From positions 1,054,001-1,118,000 of the forward strand of contig NZ_CP072467.1 in assembly GCF_018437505.1 (NCBI RefSeq): DNA of 64,000 nt, written 5' to 3'. Below, piece after piece: positions 39,580 through 58,007 of the stretch (positions are counted from its first letter, which is position 1; each line of letters begins with the position of its first letter). The position numbers and the translations under genes are program-made. The notes under the pieces are model-generated. The model saw only the letters and a list, made by a program, of their open reading frames with translations, ran no database searches and was not told the DNA's origin. The DNA comes from Spiractinospora alimapuensis. GTDB taxonomy: Bacteria; Actinomycetota; Actinomycetes; Streptosporangiales; Streptosporangiaceae.

Positions 39580-42500
39580 TCAGCCCTCGGCGGCCGGGTG
39601 GCGGGGGCCGTGGCCGGGGGGTGGGGTGAGGGCGGAGGTGAAGTTCTCGCCGTCCACGAGGGGGGTGTCCTGCCCGACGCCGACCTTGGCCATGCGGTCG
39701 TAGACCTCCAGGATCAGCTCCTTGGTGCGGTAGGAACCGTGCGCCGCCACATCCTTCTTCTTGACGATCGGGAAGGTCTCCATGATGTAGTCCACGTCAT
39801 CGCGCTCGATGCCGTAGAGGTGAAAGAACAGGGCATCCAGCTCGGCGCGCATAATCGTGCGGCGTTCCTCGTCCCAGCGGAAGGGCGGGCCGTCGTCGTC
39901 GAGGTCTCGAGCAAAGGGGGCCATGTCGTGGGCGGTGTAGGTGAGCTCGAGAGATCTTCTCGCGATAAAACCCTCGTGTAGCTTCAATCTCTGTGGAGCC
40001 AGCACTGGAAGCTGCTTCCACAGAAAAAACGCCATGCTCGTTCCACCAATTTTTTGACGACTCGCATAATCAAACACAAAAGAAGCCTGACAGCCACATA
40101 GACCTACAACTTCGCTTGCCTCCCTGGGGAGAATCGACAGGAGGTATTTGTGTCCAACCGCAACCCGAGGTATCACGGCAGCGATAGACGTCCGTTCATT
40201 TGTGGCTGATGTAGCATCACACCATCCAAACAGCCATTGATGACGCCATCCAACGGCCTGAAGTCGCGACGCAACCGTAACTTCGACTCTCCCCCGGGAA
40301 CTCTCTGACGATTCATGAATCCCAGCGGGAACCCAGCTCAGGGGAACAGCCCTGCGATTCGGATCTTGAAGCTCATCATGTTGAAGGTAACGCGGCTGAT
40401 TCTTTCTCTTGGTTGCGGTTTCACTCTTTACAACGTCTGCTGCACGATGGTTATAAAAATCCACCATCTTCGCCTCGTACAGCGGGAGCATGCGCTGCTC
40501 GCCCTTGGTGAAGACGTTGCCGTGCAGGGTCCAGCCGTCGGACTCCAGGTCCTCGCGGGCGTGGAAGAGCCCGGAGTCATGGGACATGTTGAACAGCCCT
40601 TGCGCAAACGACACCCCCCAGGGGTTCCCCTCCGGATCCCCCTCCTTCACCAGGACCGGAACCCGCCGGTAGATCCCCAGGGTGACCTCCGCATCCCGGC
40701 GAGAGCGGAACACTGGGAGGGTTCCCGTGTTCGGGTTGACCAGGGTGATCTCCTCCGGAGTGAGGGTGAACACCTTGTCCGGGGTCTCCAGATCGGCGGG
40801 ATCATGCAGGAAGAAGGCGAACGGCGTCGCGGACTCGCGCATGTCCCGGCCGGCGAGGGCCAGGATGCAGAACTTCATTCGCGAATCTACGGCCGGGAAC
40901 AAACCACTGCGATTCTCGAAGTCATACAGCGCCGCGATCGAACCCCGCTGCACAAGGTCCTTGAAGAAGTACTGCGTGCGCGCATCTGTAGCGATTCCCG
41001 TCGGCACGATGATCCCCGTACGACCATTTGCGCTGAGCAAGACGCGGTCCGTCTCCGCGAACACCGCATACAGATTCAAGTTCCCCTGGCCGGTCAGCGG
41101 AACCCGCCCGGAGCGCCGCAGGAAGTGGCTCTCCGCGTAGACCTTCCGCTTGGCCGCCGCGTGCTCGCGGAACAGCCACTGCTTGTCCGGGTCGTCCTTG
41201 AGTGCCGCGATGCGCTTCTTCCGCTCCGAGGCACGCCCGATCTCAGCGATCTCCGGGTCGCGCAGTGCGAAGAACTCCTGCTCCTTCAGCTCCACGCTGT
41301 CCCACGGCGGGTTCCCCACCACGCAGTCGAAGCCCCCGGCCCAGCCGGTGTCCTCCTCGGTACCGGTTCCGCCTTCCGGGACGGTGAAAACCTCGGGGAA
41401 CTCCAGGTGCCAGTGGAAGAAGTCGTATTGTTCGCGCAGCCGCACGATCTCCACATTGGTTTCCGACGAGGCTCCGGCCCCCTCGGGGTCGCTGAGTGCT
41501 TGGAACACCTCTTGGGTGACCGGGCGTGGAGCGTCCGGGGTCTTGAGCCACATGAATGCCGCGCACCAGGCATCGGCCAAGTGCAGCGCGTGCGTGTACT
41601 CCGCCGAGCCCTGCCAGGCGGCGTAGGCCTCCTGCTGCTCGCGCACCTCCAACAGCGAGTCCGCCGTGGCATCGGTGATGCGGCGCAGGCCGCGCGCGAA
41701 GTCCAGGTTGGACACCTTCACCGTGTCCGCGGCGAGGTCGAACAGGCTCTCCTGCCCGCCGTGCTCCTTGGCGTTGAGCTTTTCCAAGTACTTCGCGCGC
41801 TTCTTGTCGTCCCCCTCGGTAGCGATGAACGCCGCGTCCGGAACGCCCCCCTCCAGCAGCTTCGGCGTCGCTCCGATCAGTGCGTTTCCCTGTTTGATGT
41901 GTGCGTCCAGGAAGTTCAACGCCTTGCCCGGCTCCAGCGCCTCCAGCCACAGGGACACCTTCGCCAGTTCCACCGCCATGGGGTTCAGGTCCACCCCGTA
42001 GATGCACCTTGCCGCCACCTCGTGCAGTGCCCCCCGCACCGCGCCCACGGTCGGCTCGGGGTTGCCTTCCCGCACCGCGGCTACCCGCTTGGCGATCCTT
42101 CGGGCCGCCGCCAGCAGGAAGTGCCCGGAGCCGCAGGCCGGGTCACACACCTTCAGGTCCAACAGCTCGCCCACTACGGCATCCGCGTCGTCCGGGTTGC
42201 CCGCCCGCGTGGCCTTCTCCTGTCCACGTTTCACCGCGTCGTCCAGCACCGGATCCAGCGACGAGTCCAGCAGCGTCTCGATCAGCGAGGTCGGGGTGTA
42301 GTACGACCCGGTGGTCTTGCGGTCGTTGCCGCCGATGACTTTCAGTTCGAAGGTGAGGTCGGAGGCGTTGTGCTTGGGCACCAACTCCAAGAGGGATTCG
42401 TAGATGGAGCCCAACTCTTCGGCGTCCAGGTTGCGGTAGTCCACCGACCGCTGGCGCCGGGAGTCCTTGTCCCTGACCTCGGCGAGGTGGCGCACCGCCG

Positions 42501-43683
42501 CCAACAGGTGCTCGTTGGCAAGCTCCAGCCCGTCCAGGGGCGTGTCGGCCTCGGTGCGGTCGAACAGCCCGCCCAGTCCTGGCAGCCCCAGTTCGGGGCG
42601 GCCCTCGACCTCCCCCAGCGCGTCCAGCACGAGGCGCAACGCCCGGTACAGGTCCCGATGGGCGGTGCCGCGGCGACGTCGGGCGTGGCGGCGCAGGCGG
42701 GCGGTGGAGAAGTAGGCCGCGTAGCGCTCCTTGACCTGCTCGTCGGTCCCCGGCGGGTGCAGCGCGCCACGGTCCTCGGCCACGAACACGAACAACAGCC
42801 GGTAGACGAGCCGGAGCAGCGCTCGGTGGAAGGCGGTGACGTCCAGGTCTCGGCGCAACTCGGGGTTGGCGCGCAGGAAGCCGGTGCCCAGCACCGTGAT
42901 GGCCTCGCGTACGCTCTCGCTGAGCTGTTCCAGCGCGCGGGTGCCGGACTTGATGGCCTCGCTCCGCCAGGTCTCCAGCCAGCAGGCCGAGGCCGGCTGC
43001 TCGGGGGCGGTCTCGAAGCGGGAGGCGTGCAGCAGCCGGAACAGCAGCACGAACTCGTTGAAGAGTTCGCCGTCGAAGATCGCCTCAAGGTCGAACTCGA
43101 CGTAGGCCGCCCCGGCCAAGGCGCTGGAGTCGCGGAGCAGCCGCACCTGGCGGCCGTTGGTGAGCAGCGCCCACAGGCGGGGCGTGGAGGTGTTCAGTAG
43201 CTCCTGCACGAACGACTGTGGCGGAACACCTCCCGAGCTCGGCCGCCGGTCCAGCTCGGTATGCCAGGCCACGACGTGGATCGGCACGTGCTGCCACAGG
43301 TGGGAGACGTCGAAGGTCTTGGTGCCGTCGTCGCTCGCCACCCCGTCCGCCGGTCCAGGTGGCACGCGGCCGAAGCCCAGTTCGCCGAGCAGTGGCTCCA
43401 CCCACTGCGGCAGCGCCGCCCCGGCGGAGTCGGTGGCGGGGGTGCCGTCCTGGGCGGTGGGCAGGTTCTTGCGCAGCTCGCGCCAGGCACCCTTGAGGTA
43501 GTCCCAGCGGCGTTCGGCCTCGTCGCTGACCGAGCGGGCGCCCACAACCCCGTAGTCGGACGGCCTAGCGCCGGATATGTCCTTCTGTCGTCCTTCGGCG
43601 ATGCGCAGCAGCATGTCGGCGGGCAACAGCCCACCCTCGGTATGCACCGCGGTGAGGACCTGGGTACGGGTGACGGCGGCCAT
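39580..43683 (-). CDS. DrmMI/PglX-like adenine-specific DNA methyltransferase
   Basis: A 1,367-aa class I SAM methyltransferase of the Eco57I/PglX type. Motif I is VCDPACGSGHFLLAAARRIA (D514) and catalytic motif IV is VVGNPPWDS (N791-P-P-W794), which indicates N6-adenine methylation. The C-terminal about 300 residues should hold the target recognition domain; DNA there (39950-40480) is clearly AT-richer than the rest of the gene. The gene starts at an ATG overlapping the stop of the SNF2 helicase gene by one base (TGATG). In class 1 DISARM the methylase sits next to the drmD helicase, as here. It presumably marks self DNA. Confidence 0.87.
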   Translation of the reverse strand: MAAVTRTQVLTAVHTEGGLLPADMLLRIAEGRQKDISGARPSDYGVVGARSVSDEAERRWDYLKGAWRELRKNLPTAQDGTPATDSAGAALPQWVEPLLGELGFGRVPPGPADGVASDDGTKTFDVSHLWQHVPIHVVAWHTELDRRPSSGGVPPQSFVQELLNTSTPRLWALLTNGRQVRLLRDSSALAGAAYVEFDLEAIFDGELFNEFVLLFRLLHASRFETAPEQPASACWLETWRSEAIKSGTRALEQLSESVREAITVLGTGFLRANPELRRDLDVTAFHRALLRLVYRLLFVFVAEDRGALHPPGTDEQVKERYAAYFSTARLRRHARRRRGTAHRDLYRALRLVLDALGEVEGRPELGLPGLGGLFDRTEADTPLDGLELANEHLLAAVRHLAEVRDKDSRRQRSVDYRNLDAEELGSIYESLLELVPKHNASDLTFELKVIGGNDRKTTGSYYTPTSLIETLLDSSLDPVLDDAVKRGQEKATRAGNPDDADAVVGELLDLKVCDPACGSGHFLLAAARRIAKRVAAVREGNPEPTVGAVRGALHEVAARCIYGVDLNPMAVELAKVSLWLEALEPGKALNFLDAHIKQGNALIGATPKLLEGGVPDAAFIATEGDDKKRAKYLEKLNAKEHGGQESLFDLAADTVKVSNLDFARGLRRITDATADSLLEVREQQEAYAAWQGSAEYTHALHLADAWCAAFMWLKTPDAPRPVTQEVFQALSDPEGAGASSETNVEIVRLREQYDFFHWHLEFPEVFTVPEGGTGTEEDTGWAGGFDCVVGNPPWDSVELKEQEFFALRDPEIAEIGRASERKKRIAALKDDPDKQWLFREHAAAKRKVYAESHFLRRSGRVPLTGQGNLNLYAVFAETDRVLLSANGRTGIIVPTGIATDARTQYFFKDLVQRGSIAALYDFENRSGLFPAVDSRMKFCILALAGRDMRESATPFAFFLHDPADLETPDKVFTLTPEEITLVNPNTGTLPVFRSRRDAEVTLGIYRRVPVLVKEGDPEGNPWGVSFAQGLFNMSHDSGLFHAREDLESDGWTLHGNVFTKGEQRMLPLYEAKMVDFYNHRAADVVKSETATKRKNQPRYLQHDELQDPNRRAVPLSWVPAGIHESSESSRGRVEVTVASRLQAVGWRHQWLFGWCDATSATNERTSIAAVIPRVAVGHKYLLSILPREASEVVGLCGCQASFVFDYASRQKIGGTSMAFFLWKQLPVLAPQRLKLHEGFIARRSLELTYTAHDMAPFARDLDDDGPPFRWDEERRTIMRAELDALFFHLYGIERDDVDYIMETFPIVKKKDVAAHGSYRTKELILEVYDRMAKVGVGQDTPLVDGENFTSALTPPPGHGPRHPAAEG

Positions 43684-46600
43684 CAGGCGGCACCTCCAGC
43701 AACGGTGGGGGCGACGGGCAAGTAGACGTAGACGCCGAGGATGTCGGCGGGTTTCTGGGCCTGAACCCGCAGGCCGCGGCGGATCTCGTCGGAGGCGATG
43801 CGCACCCGCCGGTGGGCGTCGGCCAGCTCGGTGGCCAGTGTCTCGCCGTGAGCGTCCAGGTGCGACTCTGCGGAAGGGAGATCGTCGAGCACCATTCGCA
43901 TGGTCGGTTTGGCCATGGCCAGGGCCGTGTTCTGCGTGGCGGAGACCTCCAGGAGCGCCGTCGCCTGCTCCGGCTCCAGCCATTCGGGATGATCGGGGGT
44001 GCCGGTGAAGGCGAGCAACCGGGCGTCCTCGGCGACCATCTGCCGGGTGCCGTGCCTGGAGGGCAGGGTGAGGTGGAATCGGTAGCGCACGAGGAGCAGG
44101 GTGGTGGCCTCGTCGACGGCATCGGTACGGATCACCCCGCAGCGCCGCGCCGGGCGACGGTCGTCGCTCGGCCTCCCGTCTGGCGCGGTGTCCAGCGCGG
44201 TGTCGAGCACATGGGCGGCGAGCGCGCCCAGCACCGGGTCCGTGCGCACCAGCGCTGCCTCGCCCCGGGCCACGGCGGCGGTGTCCCGGAAGCGCACGCC
44301 CCGGCCCGGCCGGGTGGCGTCGGTACCGGCCAGCGGTTCCACGGCGTCCCGCAGCCCGATGGGGGTGCCGGAGAGATCGGCGCGGAACCCCTCGCCGCCG
44401 TCTGGAAGCGGGGTGAGCAGGCCACCGAGTCCGCGCAGGGCGCGTTCGGTGAAGGTGCGCACCTCCCCCGCCCCGCCCAGGGCGTCACGCACGGCGGCCA
44501 CCTCGCGGGCCACCTCCTCGGGGTGGATAGCACGCTGGGCGAAGCGGCTGCGGGAGGTGCGCTCCCGCTCGGCCGCGGACTTCCACTGGGTTTCGATGGC
44601 CTCCGCCTGGCGGTCCAGCGCGGCGAGTTCCTCGGAGCCGAACAGGGACTCCTGTTCGGCGGACTCGCTACCACGCATCAACAACCACTCCACAATGGCG
44701 TCCGTGACCCCGCTGGAGGCCTCGTCCGGGACGGAGACCGCGATGCCCAGGTCCTTGCGAATCTGGCGGTGTTTGCGGATGAGCACCTCCAGGACCTTGC
44801 CGTCGATGCCGTTGTCCTCGCCGTACAGAGTGACCACGCGCACCAGGTCCCGGAGCTGGCCGAAGCGGTCCACCCGGCCTTCGCGCTGGTCGTGGCGGGT
44901 GGGGTTCCAGGCGAGGTCGTAGTGCACTACGGCATCGAAGTAGTGCTGGAGGTTCACACCTTCGGAAAGGCAGTCGGTGGCTACCAGCACCCGGCGCGGG
45001 GTAGGGCCTTTCGCCGCATCGTCGGCGGCTTCGGCGGCGGTCTGTTTGGCCAACTCCTCGATCCGCTCTACGCGCTGCTGCGGGGAGAGCTTGCCGGTGA
45101 CGGCCATGACGGTGGTGCGTCGGCCGTTCGCGCCGCCCTTGTCCAGCAGGCTCTTTCGCTTCGCGGCGACGCCCTTGCCTGAGGTGCTCTTTTCCGCTGA
45201 GCCGCCGTCTTGCTCTCCGCCCAGGTGGGCGGCGACGTACTCGGCGGTGTCGATGTAGTGGCAGAAGACGATCGGGTTGTAGCCCGCGTCCAGTAGCCCG
45301 TTGAGGTGCTTGATCAGCGCTGCGAGCTTGTGGTCCTTCTGCGGGCCCTCCAATTCTGCTGCGCGGCGGGCCAGGGCCGCCAGCGGGCCGTCCGGGGCGT
45401 CCTCTGTGGCGCCTCGCTCACCCTCGGCGGCGAGGTCCGCGCCGTGGGCGGTGTCCATGCCCTCCAGAGTGTCGGTGTCCACGGCGTCCCGGGCCACTGG
45501 TGCGCCGAGCGCGTCGGCTTCCTCCGCGGTTTCGGCGGCGGCCGCAGCCGAGCGGGTGGTCAGGGTCTTCGCGGCGGCCCGCGGCGAAGAGACCATGGCG
45601 CGCAGCAATGCGATGGCCGACCACCAGGCCACCCGGTAGTCGCGGTCTCCCTTGCCGCCCGCCCGATGCACCCGCTCGCGGGCGTAGGCGATGGCATCGC
45701 CCAACAGATCCTTGTATTCCGGGGAGAGCCGGTAGGTCTCGTCAGCGAACTCCCGATCCCGGGGGAAGGACGTGGTTTCGGCGAGGGAGTCGTCGGCCAG
45801 ACCATCGCCCGTCCGGGTGAGGTATTGGCGCACGTCGGCGCGTTTGCGCTGAACGAAGTGCCGCGCCAGCAGCCGGCGCCCTTCGTCGGTATCCAGGTCA
45901 ACATCCGCCAGCTCGGGATTGACCAGGCCGAGGAGCGCCCGGAATGCCTCCTCCTTGCCGCTGTGCGGCGTGGCCGTGACCAGCATCAGGTGCCGCTCGG
46001 CGTCGGCCGCCACCTTCCGCAGCAGCTCGTAGCGAAGCTGATTCTGGGTGCTGCGGCCCGCTTTGGTGTCGCCGGCGGTGACGCAGGTGTGTGCCTCGTC
46101 CACGATGACCAGGTCCGGGCAGTGGCGCACGAAGTCGTCACGGTGGCGGGTGGACTTGATGAAGTCCGTGGAGACGATGACGTGGCGGTGCTTGTCGAAC
46201 AGGGACTGGCCGAGATCCAGGCCGCGCTCCAGTTTGGAGACCGTGGAGGAGAGCACGAGTTCGGCGTCGATGCCGAACTTGGTGCGCAGCTCCTCCTGCC
46301 ACTGCTCGGCGAGTGCCGGACTGCACAGGACGGCGAGCTTGCGGGCCTCGCCCTGCGCCAGCAGCTCGGTGGCGATCAGCCCGGCTTCCACGGTCTTGCC
46401 GATGCCCACGTCGTCGCTGATCAGCATGCGCACCGTGGGCTGGCGCAGCGCCATGAGCAACGGCACGAGCTGGTAGGCGCGTGGCTGCACCGCGATCCCG
46501 GCCAGGGAGCGGAAGGGGCCGGCCCCGGAGCGGAAGCCGATGCGCAGCGCGGAGCGCAGGAGTCCAGCGGCCTGCTCGTTGCCCAGATCCTCCGGAGTGG

Positions 46601-46775
46601 GCCAGGCGAAGGAGGCCTCGGCGACGTCCTCCAGGCTTGGGAAGACGGCGGCGACGTCGTCGTCACCCCCACCCAAGGGGCGCAGCACGAGCATTTCCTC
46701 GGCGCTCTCGGGGAGCACCACCCATTCCCGGCCCCGCGCGGAGACCAGAGATCCGGGTGCGTAGGAGGTGGGCAT
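43683..46775 (-). CDS. DrmD-like SNF2-family helicase
   Basis: A 1,030-aa superfamily 2 helicase. After a small N-terminal domain (APGSLVSARGREWVVLPESA) come Walker A DDVGIGKT (K127), DEAH box D226-E-A-H229, motif III VTATPHSGKEEAF, and the C-terminal helicase motifs LVATDCLSEGVNLQ and HDQREGRVDRFGQ. Such proteins translocate on double-stranded DNA. Size, domain order and adjacency to a DrmMI-like methylase match DrmD of class 1 DISARM. It lies 119 bp downstream of the kinase-helicase gene on the same strand. Confidence 0.88.
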   Translation of the reverse strand: MPTSYAPGSLVSARGREWVVLPESAEEMLVLRPLGGGDDDVAAVFPSLEDVAEASFAWPTPEDLGNEQAAGLLRSALRIGFRSGAGPFRSLAGIAVQPRAYQLVPLLMALRQPTVRMLISDDVGIGKTVEAGLIATELLAQGEARKLAVLCSPALAEQWQEELRTKFGIDAELVLSSTVSKLERGLDLGQSLFDKHRHVIVSTDFIKSTRHRDDFVRHCPDLVIVDEAHTCVTAGDTKAGRSTQNQLRYELLRKVAADAERHLMLVTATPHSGKEEAFRALLGLVNPELADVDLDTDEGRRLLARHFVQRKRADVRQYLTRTGDGLADDSLAETTSFPRDREFADETYRLSPEYKDLLGDAIAYARERVHRAGGKGDRDYRVAWWSAIALLRAMVSSPRAAAKTLTTRSAAAAAETAEEADALGAPVARDAVDTDTLEGMDTAHGADLAAEGERGATEDAPDGPLAALARRAAELEGPQKDHKLAALIKHLNGLLDAGYNPIVFCHYIDTAEYVAAHLGGEQDGGSAEKSTSGKGVAAKRKSLLDKGGANGRRTTVMAVTGKLSPQQRVERIEELAKQTAAEAADDAAKGPTPRRVLVATDCLSEGVNLQHYFDAVVHYDLAWNPTRHDQREGRVDRFGQLRDLVRVVTLYGEDNGIDGKVLEVLIRKHRQIRKDLGIAVSVPDEASSGVTDAIVEWLLMRGSESAEQESLFGSEELAALDRQAEAIETQWKSAAERERTSRSRFAQRAIHPEEVAREVAAVRDALGGAGEVRTFTERALRGLGGLLTPLPDGGEGFRADLSGTPIGLRDAVEPLAGTDATRPGRGVRFRDTAAVARGEAALVRTDPVLGALAAHVLDTALDTAPDGRPSDDRRPARRCGVIRTDAVDEATTLLLVRYRFHLTLPSRHGTRQMVAEDARLLAFTGTPDHPEWLEPEQATALLEVSATQNTALAMAKPTMRMVLDDLPSAESHLDAHGETLATELADAHRRVRIASDEIRRGLRVQAQKPADILGVYVYLPVAPTVAGGAA

Positions 46776-46894
46776 TGTGCGTCACTCCTTGTCGTGGGGA
46801 TGGGGGAAGCGATGGCAACGGGAGTTCGAGCGTGACCACGCGCCCCGCGTCGCACGGTGGTGAACGTGTCCGGTGGTCTCTAGAGAGCGCATGG

Positions 46895-49800: not shown

Positions 49801-52800
49801 GCTCGCGGCGCATCTCGTCCAGCAGCGCGCGCAGAATGACGGCCCGCTGCCGCGACCCGGCGCCGAGCAGCGAGGGGTGAGTACCCGCCCAGGACCGCTC
49901 GTTCTCAGCGAGCCAGTCGAGGTCGGCGTAGTCGACGCGCAGCAGCCCGGTCTGTTCCAAGTTGGGCATGGTGACCCGCCAGCCGCCGCCGAGGTCGAGG
50001 TAAAGCCGGAAGGTGATCACGTCGCGCAGCGCCGTGGCCGCCTGGGCCGCCTGGCGAGGTGGGAGCTCGCCGTCAGTGGACCTCGCGTAGTCCCCGGGGG
50101 TTAGGCCCAGCGCGTCGCTGACCCGCGAGGCCAGGTGCTCGGCGGTGAGGCCATCGCTCCCGTCCTCCACCGCGGCCATGAGTGCCCGGTAAAGCCCACC
50201 GCGCAACTGGGTGACTTGAACGAAGTCGTTGAAGTGCCCGGCCTGCAGCGAGGCATCCTGCCGGTTGTCCACGAACGTCAGCAGCTTTCGGGCCTCTTTG
50301 CCCAGAGCGTCCTCGGGGACACGCCTGAGGGCGCGCACGATGGTCTCGGAGATCAGCGAAGTGGCCGAGGAGCGGCCCTCCTGGCCCAAGGTGGCCAGCT
50401 TCGCGAAGTCCTTACCACGCTTGGTCGCGTAGCTCACCCCGCAGTGCAGGCAGAACAGGAACGGCGAGGGGACGAACGCCGCCGTCAGGTCACCCTTGCC
50501 CTCGTGGCCGTGCACGTCCACAGTGACGGTGCGCGGCACGTTGTCCTGGTAGTTCTTGGCAACGTTGTCTTGGCCGTGGTCGTCGACCTCCAGCCAGGCG
50601 TCCGGAAGCCGATCCTTGGCGAGCACCTCCTTGAGGGTCTCCGGCCACGGGGAGTCCGCGGAGAGGTATAGGTAGCCCTCCTTGCCACCCTCCGGGGCAT
50701 CCGCCGCGGGGCCGCTTTGGCGGGATGTGTAGGCCGTGCCCGTGGCGGTCGTGGTCCGCCATACCGTCAGATACTCCTGGCCACATTCGCGGCAGAACGC
50801 CAGCGGCAGCAGGATCTTGCCCTCAGAGCCGGGAAGTTCCAGCTGGTAGTGGCGGGTCAGCGGCCGCTCACCGGGCGGCTCCAGTGTGGTGAAGACGGTG
50901 TCGCCCTTGGACAGGAACTGGTGCAGTCGGAAGGCGAACAACGGGCGACCATTGCCTGGGTGAAGGGCCTCGGCTCCCGCCTCAAGGGTGCGGCGGATCG
51001 CTTCCCGGCACTGCGTGGCGTCGACACCGGTCTCGGCGGCGAGCTGCTCGGCGGCCTGCTCTACCTGGGTGGGGCGTTGACGGACCAGGCGCCCTTCGGT
51101 GTCGGTGGTCAGGCCAAAAGTACTCTCGATCCATTGGGCCAGCGGGTCGTGGTACAGCTCGTGGTAGCTCCGCGGGGCGTCCTGGGCGGTGATCCGCGCC
51201 GGGGGCACCTGTGCGGGGCCGTCGGCGGTGGCGCGCACTACGGTCTCGGTGATCACGTTGTCCGCCTCGACCGGCGTACCGAAGATCATGCCGGCGACCT
51301 CGGCGACCTTCTCCTTCTGGGCCTGGTGGGTACCACCACTGACCATGGTGGCCGACGTGCCCACGCACTGCAGGTTCGGGGCCGCACAGGCCTGGCGCAC
51401 CCGCCGGGCGAGGAAGGCGACGTCCGCGCCTTGGCGGCCGCGGTAGGTGTGCAGCTCGTCGAACACCAGGAAGTCCAGGCCGCCCGCCATCGCGATGAGC
51501 GAGTCGCGCTCGTGCGGGCGGGTGAGCATGAGCTCCAGCATCACGTAGTTGGTGAGCAGGATGTCGGGAGGGTTCTTGCGTATCCGCTCGCGCGCCTCCT
51601 CGCTCTCCTGGCCGGTGTAGCGAGCGAAGGTGACGGGTTCTCGGCCCGGGCCGTAGCCGAATTCCAGGAACTTGCGCAGCTCGTTGAGCTGGCTGTTCGC
51701 CAGGGCGTTCATGGGGTAGACCACGATGGCGCGCACCCGACGCTCGGCCTTGCCACCGGCCCGCTCCCGCTCGCGCAGCACCCGATCCACGATCGGCACG
51801 ATGTAGCCCAAGGATTTGCCGGATCCGGTGCCGGTGGTGAGGACGTAGGAGGCACCGGTGCGGGCGGTCTGCAAGGCCTGGCGTTGGTGGCGGTGCAGGG
51901 TCAACGGGCGGCCCTCGCAGCGCGTGGCGCCCTCCTTCTTCTCCGTTTGGAATATGCGGGCCGCCTCGGGGTGCAGCAGGCCCTCCTGCACCAGTTCGGG
52001 CACGGTGCCCCCGGAGGAGAAGAAGGGGTTGAGCGAGAGCCAGGGGTCAGGCCACTGGGATTTGTCGTCGAGGTCTCGCCGCACGAATTCGGCGATGTCG
52101 ACGTCGCGGATGACGGTACCGCCCTCGGTGAACTCCCGATACTCCCTAATGAGCTCGCCGTGCAGATTGAACACGTCCATCACGCCGCGCGGGGCGTCGT
52201 GGGCCGGGCGTTGGGGCGCGGTGTCGTCCAACAGCGGCGCCGGGGCAGGCTCGGGAACTTCGGCGCGTGGGTCGAACTCTGCCCAGCCGGTGACCGAGCC
52301 CTCCCCCTTGGCCAGGGGACGCAGGGCGTCGCGGACCTCGGCGGCGCTGGCTGGACGCCGGTCGGGTTCCTTGCGCAGCAGCTGTTCCACTAGCTGGGTG
52401 AGCGCACTCGGGATGTCGGCGCGCAGCAGGCCCATCGGGGGCACGGCGTCATTGTTGTGCTTGTGTCCCAGCTCATAGGGAGTGGCGCCGTCAAAGGGGA
52501 GCGTTCCCGTGAGTAGCTCGTAGAGCACACAGCCCAGGGCGTAGAGATCGGCCGCGGCCGTGACTTTGGCTCCGGCGAACTGCTCAGGGGCCATGTATCG
52601 CGCGGTCCCGACTGTGGCATCGGTACTGGTGAGGCTGCTGATGTCCGGATCATCGACGATGCGCCCCATCCCGAAGTCCAGCACCACGGCCCGGCCGCCG
52701 CGGGCGATCATCACGTTGGCGGGTTTGAGGTCACGGTGCACGATGTCCGCGGCATGCGCGGCATAGAGGGCGTCGGCGATCTGTGCGCCGAGGGCGGCGG

Positions 52801-53170
52801 CCCAGGAGACCGGCACTTGGGGCTCTTCGTCGCAGAGGTCGCGCACCGTGCGCCCGTCCAGCAGCTCCATCGCCAGGTAGGGCTTGCGGTCTACGGCGGT
52901 CTCGTCCACACCGCCGTCGATAACCCGCGGGATGTGGGGATGCACGAGTCGACGCATGATCTCCACCTCACGCGCGAAGCGCCGCACCGCCACGTCGTCG
53001 GGGTCGACGGGGATCCCAGAGCGACGGCGCAACAGGAGCTTCACCGCAACGTGGCGGTCCGGGGACTCCGGATCCACCTTCGTGTCCTCGGCGCGGTGGA
53101 CCTCGCCCATGTTGCCACGTTCGATGAATCCGTCGAGGTGGAAGCGTCCAGCCACCCACTCCTGAGACAT
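46895..53170 (-). CDS. Kinase-DEAD helicase-DUF1998-Vsr-like nuclease fusion (DrmA/DrmB-like)
   Basis: A 2,091-aa multidomain protein from the ATG at 53170. Residues 1-290 are a complete Ser/Thr kinase (GNMGEVHRAED, VAVKLLL, H145-R-D147-L-K-P-A-N, LDFGMGR, APEQ). From about 420 is a DEAD-type helicase: Walker A TGTGSGKSLG (K452), D571-E-L-H574, and helicase-C segment SPTMELGVDIKDLNAVL...RSGRGGRSGQ. Zinc-like pairs CRECGQEY and CLHCGVSY, CEDCGYHH/CRLCGSP follow. A DUF1998 region ends with GGAGVLRRIQ and CYNCLLTYQNQ. The last about 100 residues (around D2023: RPDFVYRL, VAVFVDGPVHEHERV) look like a Vsr/DUF559 PD-(D/E)XK nuclease. Helicase plus DUF1998 corresponds to DISARM DrmA/DrmB; the kinase and nuclease fusions are unusual. 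Confidence 0.85.
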   Translation of the reverse strand: MSQEWVAGRFHLDGFIERGNMGEVHRAEDTKVDPESPDRHVAVKLLLRRRSGIPVDPDDVAVRRFAREVEIMRRLVHPHIPRVIDGGVDETAVDRKPYLAMELLDGRTVRDLCDEEPQVPVSWAAALGAQIADALYAAHAADIVHRDLKPANVMIARGGRAVVLDFGMGRIVDDPDISSLTSTDATVGTARYMAPEQFAGAKVTAAADLYALGCVLYELLTGTLPFDGATPYELGHKHNNDAVPPMGLLRADIPSALTQLVEQLLRKEPDRRPASAAEVRDALRPLAKGEGSVTGWAEFDPRAEVPEPAPAPLLDDTAPQRPAHDAPRGVMDVFNLHGELIREYREFTEGGTVIRDVDIAEFVRRDLDDKSQWPDPWLSLNPFFSSGGTVPELVQEGLLHPEAARIFQTEKKEGATRCEGRPLTLHRHQRQALQTARTGASYVLTTGTGSGKSLGYIVPIVDRVLRERERAGGKAERRVRAIVVYPMNALANSQLNELRKFLEFGYGPGREPVTFARYTGQESEEARERIRKNPPDILLTNYVMLELMLTRPHERDSLIAMAGGLDFLVFDELHTYRGRQGADVAFLARRVRQACAAPNLQCVGTSATMVSGGTHQAQKEKVAEVAGMIFGTPVEADNVITETVVRATADGPAQVPPARITAQDAPRSYHELYHDPLAQWIESTFGLTTDTEGRLVRQRPTQVEQAAEQLAAETGVDATQCREAIRRTLEAGAEALHPGNGRPLFAFRLHQFLSKGDTVFTTLEPPGERPLTRHYQLELPGSEGKILLPLAFCRECGQEYLTVWRTTTATGTAYTSRQSGPAADAPEGGKEGYLYLSADSPWPETLKEVLAKDRLPDAWLEVDDHGQDNVAKNYQDNVPRTVTVDVHGHEGKGDLTAAFVPSPFLFCLHCGVSYATKRGKDFAKLATLGQEGRSSATSLISETIVRALRRVPEDALGKEARKLLTFVDNRQDASLQAGHFNDFVQVTQLRGGLYRALMAAVEDGSDGLTAEHLASRVSDALGLTPGDYARSTDGELPPRQAAQAATALRDVITFRLYLDLGGGWRVTMPNLEQTGLLRVDYADLDWLAENERSWAGTHPSLLGAGSRQRAVILRALLDEMRRELAIATPYLGDEKFESVQSASEYRLNESWVVQDSERPKFVAAYPMASTQRAKVNPNGLFFSGRHKFAQYLKRMHFREAGLGAEDLQHIVAQLLEVLAEAGLLTRTAHDPRAARRRFHRGESVTGYQVDAGCLIWKAGDGLFGAQDPLTRTYASGEGPAVNQFFRDLYRGAAASLGGLWAREHTAQVTPDDRETREKLFGEATLPLLYCSPTMELGVDIKDLNAVLMRNVPPTPANYAQRSGRGGRSGQPALITTYCATGNSHDQYYFRHSDRMVAGAVQAPRLELANEDLVAAHLHALWLAETGVKLGRAIPEVISVDYDKAKSRPEPALELHSDVQQKIEQEGAQRRALIAAHEVFGEQLEALAEMPWWDDCWLERMVRGAPKAFNDAFDRWRELFRAALVDQAEQNRRRLDHSLSERDRQRAANRRREAETQITLLLNESQDSKSVLSDFNPYRYLASEGFLPGYSFPRLPLAAYIPTRGRSDDGDFLQRPRFVAIREFGPGALIYHEGSRYQVTRIQLPPDSSGDLHTGQATRCEDCGYHHEPKDIDTQCRLCGSPLGSPTPNLLQLHTVYTTKREKISSDEEERRRAGFRLATSYRFAEHGGGRVGRQDAMARDGADTLATLHYGDSATVRITNLGRLRAKREDPDGFWLDPTTGRWLNEKQGQDASHDPGDLPLVEGGDRAGDDKAGHALRVIPYVEDRRNILVVHLTDALPREEALTLMYALERGIETAFELEDSELTSELLPPDKGPRDRILFTEAAEGGAGVLRRIQHDGEALAVAAATALDLCHFAPDGADLGTAEPNHCSRGCYNCLLTYQNQMHHQDIDRRRIVDLLRRLAGAETLPTGRGESRTDQMRRLRRASETGLEKRFVNWLKEHGYRMPDEGQVYLPEAQARPDFVYRLSNAQVAVFVDGPVHEHERVAERDAEAERRLFRSGWLAIRFPHDADWASIVADYQDFFGRGSDH

Positions 53171-53311
53171 GGCACTGCCCTCACCCATGACACTGTCCCT
53201 CGCACTCGGCGTCACCCGGCTACGGCTCCCCCTAAATGCCCATCTTCCCAGCTTTCACCGCCAGGTGGCGACGCTCACGGAAAGAACTGCCGGTTGTCTG
53301 TTTGCGTCGCC

Positions 53312-53340
53312 AACATACTCGTGCTCTAGCATTCACACAA
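53312..53340 (-). promoter_or_regulatory. Predicted promoter of the kinase-helicase gene
   Basis: On the minus strand TTGTGT (53340-53335) and TATGTT (53317-53312) are separated by 17 bp and lie about 140 bp before the ATG at 53170. It would give a long 5' leader ahead of the defence operon. The surrounding 53171-53426 region is AT-richer than the genes and must also carry the divergent promoter, where a TATACA at 53398-53403 is a possible -10. Confidence 0.4.
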
Positions 53341-53426
53341 GAGCGGCTAACGTATCCGTCTGTGGTGTTGACGCAGTAAACGAATCTCTCCCGCCCCTAT
53401 ACACACAGTTCGTGTACGGTGATCAC

Positions 53427-54923
53427 ATGACCGAGAGCAGCCAGCGCGCGTACGAGCAGCAGGTCAGCGCCGCGGACATCGCCCGTCTCGCCGGCGTGAC
53501 CCGCGCAGCGGTGTCCAATTGGCGCCGGCGCCACGAGGACTTCCCCACCCCGATCACCGACCGTGGCACCGTGGCCCGCTTCCGGCTTTCGGAGGTTCGC
53601 GCGTGGCTGGGCCGCCAGCACAAGGGCGAACTGGAGTCCGCCGATGTGCGGTTGTGGAACGCGCTGCGCAGCACCTACCACTCGGACATGGCCGCTGGAG
53701 TGGCCGCTGTCGCGGAGCTGCTCACCGGCGGCGCCCCCGGGGATCTGGGTGAGGAGGCCGCCGCCGACGCCCGCGAGTTGGCCACGGAGGGCTCCGCGAG
53801 TCAGGCGGTGCAGGTGCTCGTAGAACGGCTGGGCCGCTCCCCGCTGCGGGCGGACACCGAGCTGACCACCGATCTCCGTCTGGTGCGCGTCATCGCCCGC
53901 GCCGTCGATGGTTCCGCCCGCTCGGTTTTCGACCCCGCCTGCGGCACGGGGTCGCTCCTGCTGGGCGTCGGCGCCAGGGACGCCCAGCGTTACGGGCAGG
54001 AGGCGGTGGGCTCCGCCGCCCGGCTCACCCGTGCCCGCGCCGCGCTCGCAGGCGCACCGGAGACCGAGGTGCGTATCGGTGACGCGTTGCGCGTGGACCG
54101 CTGGCCGGAGCTGCGCACCGAACTCGTTATCTGCCACCCGCCCGCGCCGACGCCGGAGTGGGGGCGAGAGGAACTGCTCGTCGACCCTCGCTGGGAACTC
54201 GCCCTGCCGCCGCGTGCGGAGAGCGAGATGGCATGGCTACAGCACGCCTATGCCCATACCCTGCCGGGCGGCATGGCAGCAGTGGTGATGTCGACCGCTG
54301 CGGCGTACCGACGCACCGCGCGGCGCATCCGCTCCGAAGCGGTGCGGCGCGGCCTGCTTACCCAGGTGCTCGCCCTGCCGGCTGGGTTGGCGACCGGTCA
54401 CGCCCAGCCGGTGCACCTGTGGGTGTTACGCCGTCCTTCACCGCGGACGCCGGCAGTGCGAGAGGTGCGCATGGTCGACCTGACCGGTACCTCCCCCGAC
54501 GACGTACTCGACCCCGAGCAAGCGCCCAGTGCCACGCTTCCGCTGGTCGATCTGCTCGACGACACGGTGGACCTCTCGCCGCAGCGCCATGTCGCCGAAC
54601 GCAGCGGGGATCTGCTGGGTGACTACGAGGCACTGCGCGCCGAGTTCGACGAGGCGCTCGCCACACTGCACGGCTCCCTGCCCAATGTCCTGCCCGAGCT
54701 CACCGAGGGCGGCGAGGACACGGGGCACAGCATGGCGCGGTTGGCCGACCTGGCATCCGCCGGACTGGTGGATCTGAGTGGGGAGCGCCCCCGAGCTCTC
54801 GATGAGCAGCTCGACAGCGACTTCCTCAACGGCTTCCTGTACAGTCCGGCCAACCGCGGGAGGGCCACGAGCGCCAGCGGCACCCATCGCACCGACGCCG
54901 CTCTGCCGCGGTTCCGCGGCTGA
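53427..54923 (+). CDS. HTH plus N6-methylase-like protein with degenerate motif IV and probable frameshift
   Basis: A 498-aa protein. Residues 12-35 form an HTH (ADIARLAGVTRAAVSNWRRR). The HsdM-type SAM domain has an intact motif I, F-D169-PACGTGSLLLG, but motif IV reads H237-P-P-A240 instead of N-P-P-F/Y, so catalysis is doubtful. The ORF stops at 54923, yet the frame one step over continues directly with L-T-P-E-D-Q-R-R-Y-G-A-A-F-R-A-L and runs to a TGA at 55103-55105, exactly the C-terminal helix expected of this family. A 1-bp loss near 54905 is likely. It is divergent from the kinase-helicase operon and could regulate it. Confidence 0.75.
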   Translation: MTESSQRAYEQQVSAADIARLAGVTRAAVSNWRRRHEDFPTPITDRGTVARFRLSEVRAWLGRQHKGELESADVRLWNALRSTYHSDMAAGVAAVAELLTGGAPGDLGEEAAADARELATEGSASQAVQVLVERLGRSPLRADTELTTDLRLVRVIARAVDGSARSVFDPACGTGSLLLGVGARDAQRYGQEAVGSAARLTRARAALAGAPETEVRIGDALRVDRWPELRTELVICHPPAPTPEWGREELLVDPRWELALPPRAESEMAWLQHAYAHTLPGGMAAVVMSTAAAYRRTARRIRSEAVRRGLLTQVLALPAGLATGHAQPVHLWVLRRPSPRTPAVREVRMVDLTGTSPDDVLDPEQAPSATLPLVDLLDDTVDLSPQRHVAERSGDLLGDYEALRAEFDEALATLHGSLPNVLPELTEGGEDTGHSMARLADLASAGLVDLSGERPRALDEQLDSDFLNGFLYSPANRGRATSASGTHRTDAALPRFRG

Positions 54924-55105
54924 CCCCAGAGGACCAGCGCCGCTACGGCGCGGCCTTCCGGGCGCTGGAATTGGCCGAGCGCCGGGCTCGCCACCTGGCG
55001 GACGTTGCCGCGCGCGCCGCCGAACTGGCCCGCACCGGACTGACCACCGGGAGCATCGCGCCGGGCGCGGCCGAGCCTTCCTCGACTCCCCGAGACGCAC
55101 GATGA
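54920..55105 (+). pseudogene. Out-of-frame C-terminal continuation of the HTH-methylase
   Basis: This 61-codon stretch (L-T-P-E-D-Q-R-R-Y onward, then ELAERRARHLADVAARAAEL and GLTTGSIAPG) has the helical pattern with which HsdM-like proteins of this type end. It has no start codon or ribosome-binding site of its own, and its frame is offset from the upstream gene by a single base. It is therefore read as the detached tail of that gene, by mutation, recoding or an assembly error. The junction lies in CCGCGG-TT-CCGCGG, a self-complementary sequence. Confidence 0.6.
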
Positions 55106-55290
55106 TGTGGTCGCTGCCCGGTTCGCGCCCGAAGAGCGCCGGTGCGCTTGGCACCGGCCGCGGCCCTCCACCCTCGACAAACCGCGTTACGCTGACCGCT
55201 CACGTGACCCCTACGAGTCGCCGGGTCGCTGAGGACCGCGATCCGACTTCCCCCTTACCCCCCGCGCCCGACTTCCACAAGGTGACAGCC

Positions 55291-57396
55291 GTGGCACAGC
55301 TCGCCCTATACCGGGACTTTCTGACCGACTTCGCCAAGCTCGAGAAGACCGTACAGATGCGGGTCAGCGAGGCCTTCGAGAAGTTCGAGAACGCCGTGCA
55401 CGCCGGCGCGCACCTGGAGAAGATCAGCGGGCTCAAGGGCTCTCCTTTCCGCACCATCCGCATCGATCGATTCTGGCGCGGCGTGGTGCTGGCCCCGGAA
55501 TCCGGCGACACCTACACCCTGCTCGCGGTGCTGCCGCACGACGACGCCTATGAGTGGGTGCGGCGGCGGCGCGCCTCGGTCAACACCGCGACCGGCCGGA
55601 TCGAGATCCGCGACGTGGCCGCCATCGATGCCTCTATGCCTCAGTTGGAGCGGATGGCGAGCAAGCGCCAGGGGAGGTTGTTCGACCACATTGGCGACGC
55701 GGACATGCGACGGCTGGGGGTGGACGAGCAGACCCTGGCCTTTGCTCGGGCGCTGACCGACGACTTCCAACTGGAGGCCGCCCGCGCCCTGCTGCCTCAG
55801 GTCCAGTGGGAGGTGCTCTACGGGCTGGCGGCCGGCATGAGCCCCGAGGACGTTTGGCAGGAGCTGGGCGCGGCGATCTCCGCGGGCCAGGACTTCGACA
55901 CCGAGGATCTGGACGCCGCGGTCCGCCGCAGCGGCGACCGGGTGCTGTTGGTGGACGGACCGTCCGATCTGCTGGCCGTGCTGGCCGACCCCTTCGAACT
56001 GTGGCGCATCTACCTGCACCCCGCCCAACGCTCCGTGGTGGAGGCGACCTACCGCGGTCCCGCCCGCGTCGGCGGAGGGCCGGGCACCGGCAAGACCGTG
56101 GTGGCGCTGCACCGCGCGTTCCGCCTCGCCCAGCGGGGCGCCGGCATGGTGCTGCTGACCACCTTTACCTCCACCCTCGCCGAGCAGTTGGAGCGCAGCC
56201 TGCGTCTGCTGGCCGAGTCCTCCGGGGACACCGAGGCACTTCAGCGCGTTCGGGTGGAGCACGTGGACCGGCTCGCCCATCGCGTCTTCCGCGCCGAGCA
56301 CGGCAGGCCCACGCTGCTGGACAACACCGCCGAGCAGAAGCTGTGGGAGCAGATCACCGCCGGGCTGCGAGACGACCTCCCGCCCGCCTTCCTCGCCGAG
56401 GAGTGGCGCCAGGTGGTGCTGGCCCGCCGGGTGTCCTCGGCGCCTGACTACCTCGCGGCGAAGCGCACCGGGCGCGGGCGAGCGTTGAACCCGACGGTGA
56501 AGTCCCGGGTGTGGCAGGCGGTCGACGAGTTCCGGCGCCTGCTCGACGAGCGCGGGCTGTGGACACACGAGACGGTGTGCGAGGAGGCGGAGCGGCTGCT
56601 CACCGCGCGCGCTAAGCCCGAGTTCCGCCACGTGGTGGTGGACGAGGCCCAGGATCTGGGCGCGCTCCAGTGGCGCCTGCTGCGCGCCGCGGCACCCGAG
56701 GCCGGTGATGACCTCTTCATCACGGGCGACACCCACCAGCGCGTCTACGGCCCGCAGGTGACCCTCTCCGAAGTCGGCGTGAACATCCGGGGCCGCTCCA
56801 CCAAGCTTCGGGTCAACTACCGCACCACCGCCCAGATCCTCGGCTGGAGCCTTGGGGTCGTCCGCGGCGAGCCGGTGGACGACCTGGACGGCGGTCTGGA
56901 ATCGTTGGCCGGGTACCGCTCGGAGATGCGCGGCGCCCCGCCGCAAACCGCGGCCTTATCCACCTGGGAGCGCGAGCTGGATCACCTCGCCTCCACTGTG
57001 CGCCAGTGGCGTGAGGACGGGGTGCTGCCCGGAGAGATCGGCGTGGCCGCTCGCTCCAACAGGCTGGCCGAGCAGGCTGCGGCGGCCTTGGAGCGAACCG
57101 GGGTTCCGGTGCGGCTTCTGGCCCGCTCCGGCGAGCCCAGCGAGTCGATCGCCGTGGGCACCATGCATCGGATGAAGGGGTTGGAGTTCCGCTGCCTGGC
57201 TGTCGTCGGTGCCGGCGCCGACCATCTCCCCGCCCCGCGCAGCCTCACATCGGAGGCGCAGGATTCCGGGGCGCACGCCCGTGACCTGCTGCGCGAGCGC
57301 TGCCTACTGTACGTGGCGTGCACCCGCGCCCGCGAGCGCCTCAGCGTGACCTGGCATGGTGCTCCCAGCCCATTCCTGGCCGATCTGGGGAACTGA
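55291..57396 (+). CDS. UvrD/Rep-like superfamily 1 helicase with N-terminal RelE-like domain
   Basis: A 701-aa protein. Residues 1-95 resemble a RelE/ParE-type fold (FLTDFAKLEKTVQMRVSEAF, LKGSPFRTIRIDRFWRGVV, YTLLAVLPHDDAYEWVRRRR). After a linker domain come SF1 helicase motifs: GGGPGTGKTVVALHRAF (K268), DEAQDLGALQWRLL (D451), GDTHQRVYG, VNYRTTAQIL, TMHRMKGLEF and ACTRARERL. RelE-UvrD fusions occur in bacterial defence neighbourhoods. Start is placed at the GTG at 55291; the GTG at 55282 is possible. It follows the methylase fragment by about 185 bp on the same strand and belongs to the same island. Confidence 0.85.
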   Translation: MAQLALYRDFLTDFAKLEKTVQMRVSEAFEKFENAVHAGAHLEKISGLKGSPFRTIRIDRFWRGVVLAPESGDTYTLLAVLPHDDAYEWVRRRRASVNTATGRIEIRDVAAIDASMPQLERMASKRQGRLFDHIGDADMRRLGVDEQTLAFARALTDDFQLEAARALLPQVQWEVLYGLAAGMSPEDVWQELGAAISAGQDFDTEDLDAAVRRSGDRVLLVDGPSDLLAVLADPFELWRIYLHPAQRSVVEATYRGPARVGGGPGTGKTVVALHRAFRLAQRGAGMVLLTTFTSTLAEQLERSLRLLAESSGDTEALQRVRVEHVDRLAHRVFRAEHGRPTLLDNTAEQKLWEQITAGLRDDLPPAFLAEEWRQVVLARRVSSAPDYLAAKRTGRGRALNPTVKSRVWQAVDEFRRLLDERGLWTHETVCEEAERLLTARAKPEFRHVVVDEAQDLGALQWRLLRAAAPEAGDDLFITGDTHQRVYGPQVTLSEVGVNIRGRSTKLRVNYRTTAQILGWSLGVVRGEPVDDLDGGLESLAGYRSEMRGAPPQTAALSTWERELDHLASTVRQWREDGVLPGEIGVAARSNRLAEQAAAALERTGVPVRLLARSGEPSESIAVGTMHRMKGLEFRCLAVVGAGADHLPAPRSLTSEAQDSGAHARDLLRERCLLYVACTRARERLSVTWHGAPSPFLADLGN

Positions 57397-57629: not shown

Positions 57630-58007
57630 ATGCCCCACGTGGAGATCACCCAGAAGACTGACGACAGACTCGAACTCCTCGCCTCGTGGGAGGGCATCTC
57701 GAAGGGCGAGGTCATCGCCCGACTGCTGGAGCGGCTCCACGAGGCGGGGGAAAAAACGAATACCAACGCCACCACGGTCACCGTCTTCACCGTGTATCAG
57801 AAGACCCGCGTCGAGGCGGAGTTCGACCCGGCCACCCACACCTTGGCGATCACTTCCTCCCCCTGGTCCGGGGAGACGTTTAGCAAGCCCAGCACAGCCG
57901 CGATCGCCGTAGTGGAACACCTCAACCCCAACGCCAGCCCGAACAGGAACGGGTGGTCCTTCTGGCGAGTGGCGAGCACCGGACGGCCGCTTGATACACT
58001 AAGATAG
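57630..58007 (+). CDS. Ribbon-helix-helix plus RAMA-like domain protein (candidate modified-DNA reader)
   Basis: A 125-aa protein. Residues 3-40 (VEITQKTDDRLELLASWEGI, SKGEVIARLLERLHE) look like a ribbon-helix-helix DNA-binding domain. The C-terminal half has the pattern G-E-T-F-S-K-P-S-T-A-A, NRNGWSFWRV, as in RAMA domains, which accompany restriction and methylation enzymes and are predicted to bind modified DNA. It lies directly after the DISARM-like island. A methylation-sensing regulator of that island is the obvious hypothesis. No catalytic residues are seen. Confidence 0.65.
   Translation: MPHVEITQKTDDRLELLASWEGISKGEVIARLLERLHEAGEKTNTNATTVTVFTVYQKTRVEAEFDPATHTLAITSSPWSGETFSKPSTAAIAVVEHLNPNASPNRNGWSFWRVASTGRPLDTLR

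Follow-up and report, generated by a model that had tools for sequence, protein, structure and literature searches.

A Ser/Thr kinase fused to the ArmC helicase in an ARMADA Type I locus of Spiractinospora alimapuensis and other actinomycetes

The locus described here is located in a 64,000-nucleotide stretch of the Spiractinospora alimapuensis chromosome (hereafter the window; positions 1,054,001-1,118,000 of NZ_CP072467.1, a one-contig genome of 5.86 Mb), and all positions given below are those of the window. Its minus-strand gene trio is ARMADA Type I, a named system, and the locus as a whole is this known system with new features: a Ser/Thr kinase that forms part of the ArmC helicase, and side genes of the type found in DISARM loci. 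ARMADA is defined by the presence of a YprA helicase, a BrxHII/RapA-like helicase and a PglX-like methylase (Bell et al. 2025, preprint, PMC12458937). An anti-phage role may be proposed for the window locus. An earlier note on this DNA had described five genes in a divergent layout, and this description holds: all five long open reading frames (ORFs) are present on the strands then given, their G+C content at third codon positions is of the coding type, and they have family matches and homologues elsewhere.

The first gene of the trio (46895..53170, minus strand) encodes an ArmC-like protein of 2091 residues, counted from the ATG at 53170, that has been assigned by family matches, a helicase tree and a kinase alignment. 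It contains, in this order, a Ser/Thr kinase, a YprA/DruE-like SF2 helicase, a DUF1998/MZB domain and a possible C-terminal PD-(D/E)XK (Vsr-like) region. The kinase domain covers ORF residues 32-290 (52346..53122, minus strand; Pfam PF00069 Pkinase, 5.6e-37), the DEAD domain matches at 1.8e-24 (Pfam), and the zinc-binding MZB/DUF1998 domain is found at 47354..47635 on the same strand (PF09369, 5.6e-9). The second gene (43683..46775, minus strand) codes for an ArmA-like RapA/BrxHII/DrmD-like SNF2 helicase of 1030 residues, identified by PADLOC and NCBIfam models and by comparison with E. coli. The third one (39580..43683, minus strand) codes for an ArmB-like PglX/DrmMI-like adenine DNA methylase of the Eco57I/PglX type, 1367 residues long, in which the motifs DPACGSG and NPPW are present. 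The armB start is most likely at 43683 and not at 43983, its start codon overlapping the armA stop by one base.

In ARMADA Type I the YprA gene is generally the first one, and the criteria for this type also list a BrxA-like insertion after RecA1 and one OB-fold insertion (PMC12458937). The window trio shares with it the co-directional order YprA, BrxHII/RapA-like helicase and PglX-like methylase, as well as the DUF1998 domain, and this order is kept in all 75 named relatives with the three minus-strand genes in the fetched DNA. Kinase-free loci with the Type I order were found on plasmids of Nocardioides, Rhodococcus, Deinococcus, Roseomonas and Agrobacterium, and a Planktothrix plasmid carries the reversed order, which has been reported for cyanobacterial ARMADA (PMC12458937). 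The window differs from the published Type I in the fusion of its ArmC to a kinase and in the addition of a divergent HTH-methylase, probably a pseudo-methylase, and of ArmD, which is a Type II component in that report. By model scores the window ArmC, a YprA-like protein with DUF1998/MZB, is nearer to Druantia than to DISARM (PADLOC top match DruE3, 338 bits), and in direct comparison it matches E. coli ArmC at E 4e-31 and DruE3 at 3e-25.

Type II consists of ArmA-ArmB-ArmC, followed almost always by ArmD, a RelE-UvrD fusion (PMC12458937). The Type II genes of E. coli ATCC 8739 were taken from the database record as a comparison set. All four families are present in the window, and ArmD is 35% identical over 715 columns (E 4e-125). 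However, ArmA, ArmB and ArmC are distant (23-37% identity in pieces; ArmC 23-33%, also in pieces only), the E. coli genes run in one direction as ArmA-ArmB-ArmC-ArmD, and no kinase is present in the 49-kb stretch around them. The window is not a Type II locus by gene order or by ArmC clade, although it has an ArmD homologue. In the helicase tree the window protein belongs to a set of 76 rows that is split from E. coli ArmC and from the Type II proteins L070 and L072 of actinomycetes with a support of 100 (L and G numbers are our handles for loci and genomes). This FastTree tree has 84 rows, has long branches flagged and does not include a published Type I reference sequence among its rows; 42 of 126 proteins had been dropped, namely same-genome duplicates, L177, rows with truncated or frameshifted sequences, and two out of every three among most of the rows L100-L149.

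The earlier note had read the first protein as a helicase-DUF1998 protein, overlooking the complete kinase at its N-terminus. The fused kinase has K59, the αC Glu83, HRD, N167, DFG, APE and the motif XI R287 invariant in 94 of 94 rows of the alignment, the window included; columns 85 and 286 were rejected as the αC Glu and the motif XI Arg, being unconserved. Helicase residues and three zinc-site Cys of ArmC are likewise invariant (91 of 91 rows). These alignments represent 87 and 85 distinct sequences, respectively, because some genomes had been fetched twice. The best NCBIfam matches of the kinase are of the PknB type, and its match to PglW is weak.

Using a kinase-free query, a helicase match at E 1e-30 was obtained in 56 of the 394 genomes of the class. 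Among the long ArmC matches of this sample, those with at least 58% identity have a kinase on the N-terminal side in 14 out of 14 cases, 13 of them in one open frame, the gene of G301 being frameshifted; short helicase fragments in G083, G088, G139 and G190 stand outside this count. The named loci are the best 80 of 557 from a scan of 84,980 species, and 79 of these 80 are fused (L152 is interrupted at a contig end), a figure that is biased because the query included the kinase. Fused loci occur in genera such as Streptomyces, Nocardiopsis, Micromonospora, Nonomuraea, Actinomadura, Lentzea and Amycolatopsis. The helicase tree requires a single change of state, on a branch with a support of 100, and by this tree the kinase-helicase fusion has a single origin within ARMADA Type I. 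The word 'kinase' is absent from the main text of the ARMADA preprint (PMC12458937). In the literature covered, mostly as titles, the beginnings of abstracts and passages and with the supplements of the preprint outside this coverage, no kinase-fused ARMADA or ArmC was described. A contig filed under Candidatus Melainabacteria (L089) carries a 61%-identical kinase-ARMADA, and it is perhaps a mis-binned actinomycete contig.

The two plus-strand genes are separated from armC by a divergent intergenic region of 256 bp (53171..53426). It contains an inverted repeat of 16 nt with imperfect arms (53266-53281 and 53297-53312, 81% complementary). No operator common to the divergent regions was found: two 8-mers, ACAGTACA and CAGTACAC, occur in 6 of 8 regions, the window and L042 not among them, perfect 7-nt inverted repeats are not common to the divergent regions of the relatives, and a consensus promoter scan of the window region gave no match. 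The divergent layout with RelE-UvrD adjoining the HTH-methylase is rare, being present in the window and in L042, and also, with an extra stand-alone kinase inside the arrangement, in L076 and L077. L077 comes from Nocardiopsis alborubida ATCC 23612 and has an open HTH-methylase gene.

The first plus-strand gene (53427..54923, start most likely at 53427) encodes an HTH protein with an HsdM-like (N6_Mtase) methylase domain, 498 residues as read. The model of this frame has a pLDDT of 85.7 and an HsdM-like fold, its best PDB match being the PacII M subunit (7vs4, E 3e-19, TM 0.50). The C-terminal part of the family weakly matches HsdS (E about 1e-10 for the whole sequence, none of the individual stretches below 1e-5). 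In our alignment A1, the nine rows of the window subfamily have all lost the aromatic residue of motif IV (CHPPA in the window; CDPPT, CTPPA, CEPPT and others), and the stretch before the C-terminal tail measures 92-96 residues, which means that about 75 residues of the recognition region have been lost. In the other 15 rows the same stretch has 161-185 residues, and PPF or PPY is present in 14 of them, the exception being L190 with CAPPS. The latter is one of three rows from DISARM loci, which are 31-35% identical to the window protein and of which the other two keep CDPPF. Motif I is mostly kept in the window subfamily. Since motif IV has lost its aromatic residue and the protein is shortened, the subfamily is probably catalytically dead, and it is probably a pseudo-methylase that has been kept for the binding of DNA or S-adenosylmethionine (SAM).

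The second plus-strand gene (55291..57396, start most likely at 55291) encodes an ArmD-like RelE-UvrD protein of 701 residues (PF00580, PF13361; homologous to E. coli ArmD). Over the first 112 residues it shares 38% identity with E. coli ArmD, whose N-terminal domain has been called RelE-like (PMC12458937), and the model matches a UvrD fold (Z 27.7, rmsd 3.7, 420 residues aligned). In a RelE-UvrD tree, in which the contexts are our own labels, the window copy falls in a clade of nine rows (support 100/100) made up of four kinase-ARMADA, two DISARM-labelled and two unassigned copies and one from a distant kinase-ARMADA locus; L183 was called DISARM although its RelE-UvrD gene is about 18 kb from the DISARM-type genes. 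In L165, L166 and L168, a DUF4357-AAA gene, a McrC-like gene and RelE-UvrD, followed by a convergent HTH-methylase, lie 12-24 kb from a kinase-ARMADA.

With respect to function, we lean slightly towards the reading that the locus is an anti-phage ARMADA Type I system of a kinase-fused actinomycete lineage, with a divergent regulatory and effector pair, working as follows. ArmB would methylate adenines of the host DNA as a self mark, and ArmA and ArmC would load on phage DNA that is unmarked or contains single strands. ArmC would then translocate and its putative C-terminal nuclease would cut. The fused kinase could license this helicase-nuclease output upon DNA engagement or partner release through autophosphorylation or the phosphorylation of a partner, for which ArmA, the HTH pseudo-methylase and ArmD are the likeliest candidates, and this would lift an inhibition or recruit a second effector. 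The HTH pseudo-methylase might bind DNA, and perhaps SAM, without methylating, as a regulator, or as an adaptor that links the core with ArmD, and ArmD, a UvrD motor with a RelE-like domain, would be the second effector. The substrates, the order of events, the nuclease activity and the role of phosphorylation in this proposal are inferred from E. coli ARMADA (PMC12458937) and from DruE (PMC13192584). In the literature covered, phage protection has been demonstrated only for the E. coli Type II system, which is non-abortive and needs all four genes, the Walker motifs and the NPPW motif, although mutants in the ArmD Walker B and the ArmB SAM motif show only a partial loss (PMC12458937). DruE is a helicase-nuclease that assembles on DNA containing single-stranded DNA (ssDNA) (PMC13192584). 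ARMADA has been listed among the systems that restrict by unknown mechanisms (PMC12904381).

Kinases are also known from other defence systems. For instance, PglW of BREX-2 is another kinase-bearing defence protein (PMC12839542), and CapK, which belongs to a different kinase class, is part of an ssDNA-activated kinase-repressor pair that controls immune operons (PMC13373217); its resemblance to the fused ArmC kinase may be taken as an analogy. Of the 8 evaluable Type II loci of actinomycetes, 6 (G232, G291, G371, G378, G161 and G338) have a stand-alone kinase gene just upstream of armA, 7 of 15 loci not showing the region upstream of armA. In G161 an HTH-methylase precedes the armA-side kinase and a second kinase follows armD. 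The kinase built into ArmC and the side genes of kinds also present in DISARM suggest that such defence systems may be switched by phosphorylation.

The pair is also present in DISARM loci. Among 20 RelE-UvrD loci away from kinase-ARMADA, mostly better-scoring matches and not a random draw, and with incomplete gene lists for G038 (at its end) and G233, 12 have drmA and/or drmB in the DNA fetched. In six of them (L181, L184, L185, L188, L189 and L190) the order is drmA, drmB, (drmC), HTH-methylase, kinase, RelE-UvrD; L186 and L187 have a drmAB-linked cassette without the HTH-methylase, the cassette kinase is convergent in L192 and L193, and L195 and L197 show another arrangement. The remaining eight loci include the very close G283 (L180), with HTH-methylase and kinase and no drmAB in view, and G189 (L182), at a contig edge, with only the HTH-methylase beside RelE-UvrD. 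In seven genomes the cassette is followed by a gene that we take to be DUF262-like (PADLOC label HEC-05). Class 1 DISARM loci of the same bacterial family with this cassette downstream (G267, G121, G250, G110 and others) resemble the window in their Ser/Thr kinase and, in most of them, the HTH-methylase, and the RelE-UvrD proteins of the four named here are 61-69% identical to that of the window. However, they possess DrmD, DrmMI, split DrmA and DrmB and, in some, DrmC, and their kinase has a gene of its own. The cassette kinase in the DISARM operon of G267 shares 71% identity with the stand-alone kinase of L076. The simplest reading of these sequences is that the cassette has been exchanged between DISARM and ARMADA. 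No DISARM operon with HTH-methylase, kinase and RelE-UvrD was described in the literature covered as above. G338 carries a DISARM-type set with two HTH-methylase types and, about 18 kb from it, RelE-UvrD, as well as a Type II ARMADA that has a kinase of its own (L211, L218/L229).

To our knowledge, it is not settled how YprA-helicase defences (DISARM, ARMADA, Druantia) stay off in healthy cells and are released on infection. We tentatively propose, and would put it somewhat short of an even chance, that phosphorylation is a general licensing switch of actinomycete YprA-helicase immunity: one exchangeable cassette (HTH-methylase or pseudo-methylase, kinase and RelE-UvrD) would serve class 1 DISARM and ARMADA Type I, kinases would also stand beside Type II, and in one lineage a kinase would have been fused to ArmC once. 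If so, DNA engagement and kinase signaling would be united in one protein of 2,100 residues. The fusion, its fused and unfused sister lineages and the kinases near Type II and DISARM make the question of the off state and its release directly testable. A common RelE-UvrD cassette also ties together systems that are now classified separately, which matters for the way annotation tools divide them.

Different observations weigh against the proposed working of the locus. ARMADA YprA proteins are reported to carry a C-terminal Vsr-type nuclease (PMC12458937), in agreement with the idea of the earlier note that another nuclease stands in for DrmC, but the residue counts are mixed: the two Asp of this region are kept in 90 of 91 rows, the Glu in 45 and the His, whose column is badly aligned, in 38. 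Of 23 kinase-free Type I proteins, 15 keep the second Asp, and there is no Pfam nuclease match in the window ArmC. Long ArmC matches of the class sample with 54% identity or less lack the kinase in all 16 cases examined (of 17; G023 was left out), so the kinase is not essential to ARMADA as such, and two of the evaluable Type II loci (G111 and G198) have no kinase beside armA. The RelE-like domain of ArmD has no significant Pfam or PDB sequence match, and its fold is neither supported nor excluded by the VIA-align list, which is filled by the UvrD part. In 10 of the 14 kinase-ARMADA genomes of the class sample a RelE-UvrD gene is found no more than 35 kb from ArmC, where random placement would predict 0.26 genomes; however, the cut-off of 35 kb was chosen with the distances already known, and this null ignores defence-gene clustering. 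The distance is 12-31 kb in seven of the 14 genomes, four have no copy within 35 kb, and the nearby copy of G208 has an internal stop. ArmD directly adjoins in few loci, those with the divergent layout and L084 and L090, in which it is directly downstream of armB; in L115 and L142 no more than the beginning of an ArmD-type gene is visible at the locus edge. Finally, the window HTH-methylase gene is frameshifted near 54899 with respect to 7 of 7 homologues compared, and its conserved last ~55 residues are consequently in another frame, aligning to about 55080.

The core ARMADA and the HTH-methylase/RelE-UvrD pair could be two independent systems, brought together only by the clustering of defence genes. 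The pair is found without ARMADA in DISARM-type loci and elsewhere, and many kinase-ARMADA loci lack it in the flanks that were fetched (HTH-methylase present in 16 and RelE-UvrD in 5 of the 80 named loci). However, the linkage is far above that expected by random placement, though defence clustering would also raise it, the divergent arrangement uses one common 256-bp gap, ArmD copies occur near kinase-ARMADA at no fewer than two places on the RelE-UvrD tree, and ArmD is essential in E. coli ARMADA (PMC12458937). We consider such independence unlikely, albeit with an appreciable chance.

The frameshift could also mean that the locus is partly decayed and that the minus-strand trio works alone in the window strain. 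However, the frameshift lies beyond the HTH and methylase folds, which are modelled at a pLDDT of 85.7 in the frame as read, it could be an assembly error, and the other four genes are open. Partial decay seems improbable to us.

The methylase of BREX-2 may be toxic, and the window locus might be a Pgl/BREX-2-like system in which the kinase controls a toxic methylase and protection is partial or altruistic. BREX-2 combines the PglW kinase with the PglX methylase (PMC12839542), and the window kinase and ArmB match PglW (weakly) and PglX, respectively. However, no PglZ or BrxC/PglY-like model is among the matches listed for the five proteins and the neighbours scanned, the kinase is closest to the PknB type, and E. 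coli ARMADA is non-abortive (PMC12458937). We give this explanation a slim chance.

The suggestion of the earlier note that the island may represent a new DISARM subtype, with fused DrmA and DrmB functions and with DrmC replaced, is highly improbable, as the trio matches the named ARMADA Type I (PMC12458937) and as the split drmA/drmB set with drmC exists among relatives of the same bacterial family. The likeness to the class 1 DISARM set stands as far as the families are concerned (RapA/BrxHII-like and DrmD-like, PglX/DrmMI-like, YprA-like), but the NCBIfam cut-offs are missed. The SNF2 protein scores 292.5 bits with NCBIfam DrmD (cut-off 610) and 266 bits with PADLOC DrmD, and no DrmA, DrmB or DrmC model is among the NCBIfam matches listed for the five window proteins (for the helicase, 25 of 26 are listed). 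The large helicase is nearest to DruE and ArmC and is DruE-like in PADLOC. Controls from relatives pass: the class 1 DISARM of G267 reaches 1373 bits for DrmD (cut-off 610), 1425 for DrmA (950) and 699 for DrmB (240), and G250 reaches 236 for DrmC (133). DISARM was rejected on these scores. The PADLOC model PDLC02572, labelled DrmA, gives 166 bits with the window SNF2 protein; it seems to be a DrmD-type model, since it gives 1367 bits with the true DrmD of G267. No DrmA homologue was found in the own genome at E 1e-10, in a weak test that had no control.

Other labels were also set aside. The PADLOC 2.0.0 model PDLC02853, labelled DpdE, is the best fit of the window ArmA (full length, 1507 bits). 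Dpd was rejected, given that NCBIfam DpdE reaches 168 of 500 bits and that the DpdJ and DpdF models are far under their cut-offs; we treat the label as a probable naming fault of PADLOC, and ARMADA ArmA may be misreported as Dpd by this version. The type-specific partners of Druantia are DruH, DruA-D and DruM/F/G, and no Druantia partner model is among the PADLOC matches listed for the five window proteins, these lists covering the first 25 matches for four of them. We know of no methylase in Druantia III. Its DruE (9tu7) is the nearest solved chain to the window helicase by sequence (E 9.6e-43), but Druantia III combines this protein with DruH and possesses PLD-type nuclease domains (PMC12458937). 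The 9tu7 chain was rejected as an ARMADA structure: it matches DruE of ATCC 8739, and not ArmC, over 2104 of 2104 residues.

Further genes accompany some kinase-ARMADA loci. Among the 80 named loci, some of the Streptomyces type have a divergent sigma-70-like protein (17 of 80), DrmA (14) and DrmB (15). In Streptomyces and Kitasatospora, this sigma-70-like (MzaA-like) gene is followed by drmA and mostly drmB (L088, L092, L094, L101, L103, L104, L108, L114, L116, L129, L132, L146 and L150), so that a sigma factor heads a DISARM-type module beside ARMADA. McrBC-like genes are near some loci (AAA gene in 12 of 80, McrC-like gene in 7), and a link of McrBC with a DISARM-like system had been noted earlier (PMC11090510). 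A small UvrD/NERD-helicase-like protein forms a cluster of 10 loci.

In the window, a small gene (57630..58007, plus strand), possibly a sixth one of the locus, begins 234 bp after the RelE-UvrD gene. Its protein weakly matches RAMA (2.4e-6, 27.9 bits; Pfam cut-off 35.2), and its only homologue among 176 loci directly precedes drmA in G171. On the other side, about 6 kb beyond the methylase end, 30703-33414 encodes a second, separate kinase-domain protein (903 residues, Pkinase 2.5e-19). A neighbouring cassette (33805-37642) is formed by an NrtR-like NUDIX regulator, a PNP-superfamily nucleosidase (with a PADLOC effector match) and a protein that we take to be TPR-like. Homologues of all three are located beside the kinase-ARMADA of Actinopolyspora alba (L086) and Micromonospora mirobrigensis (L110), and two of the three are present in G338 (L211).

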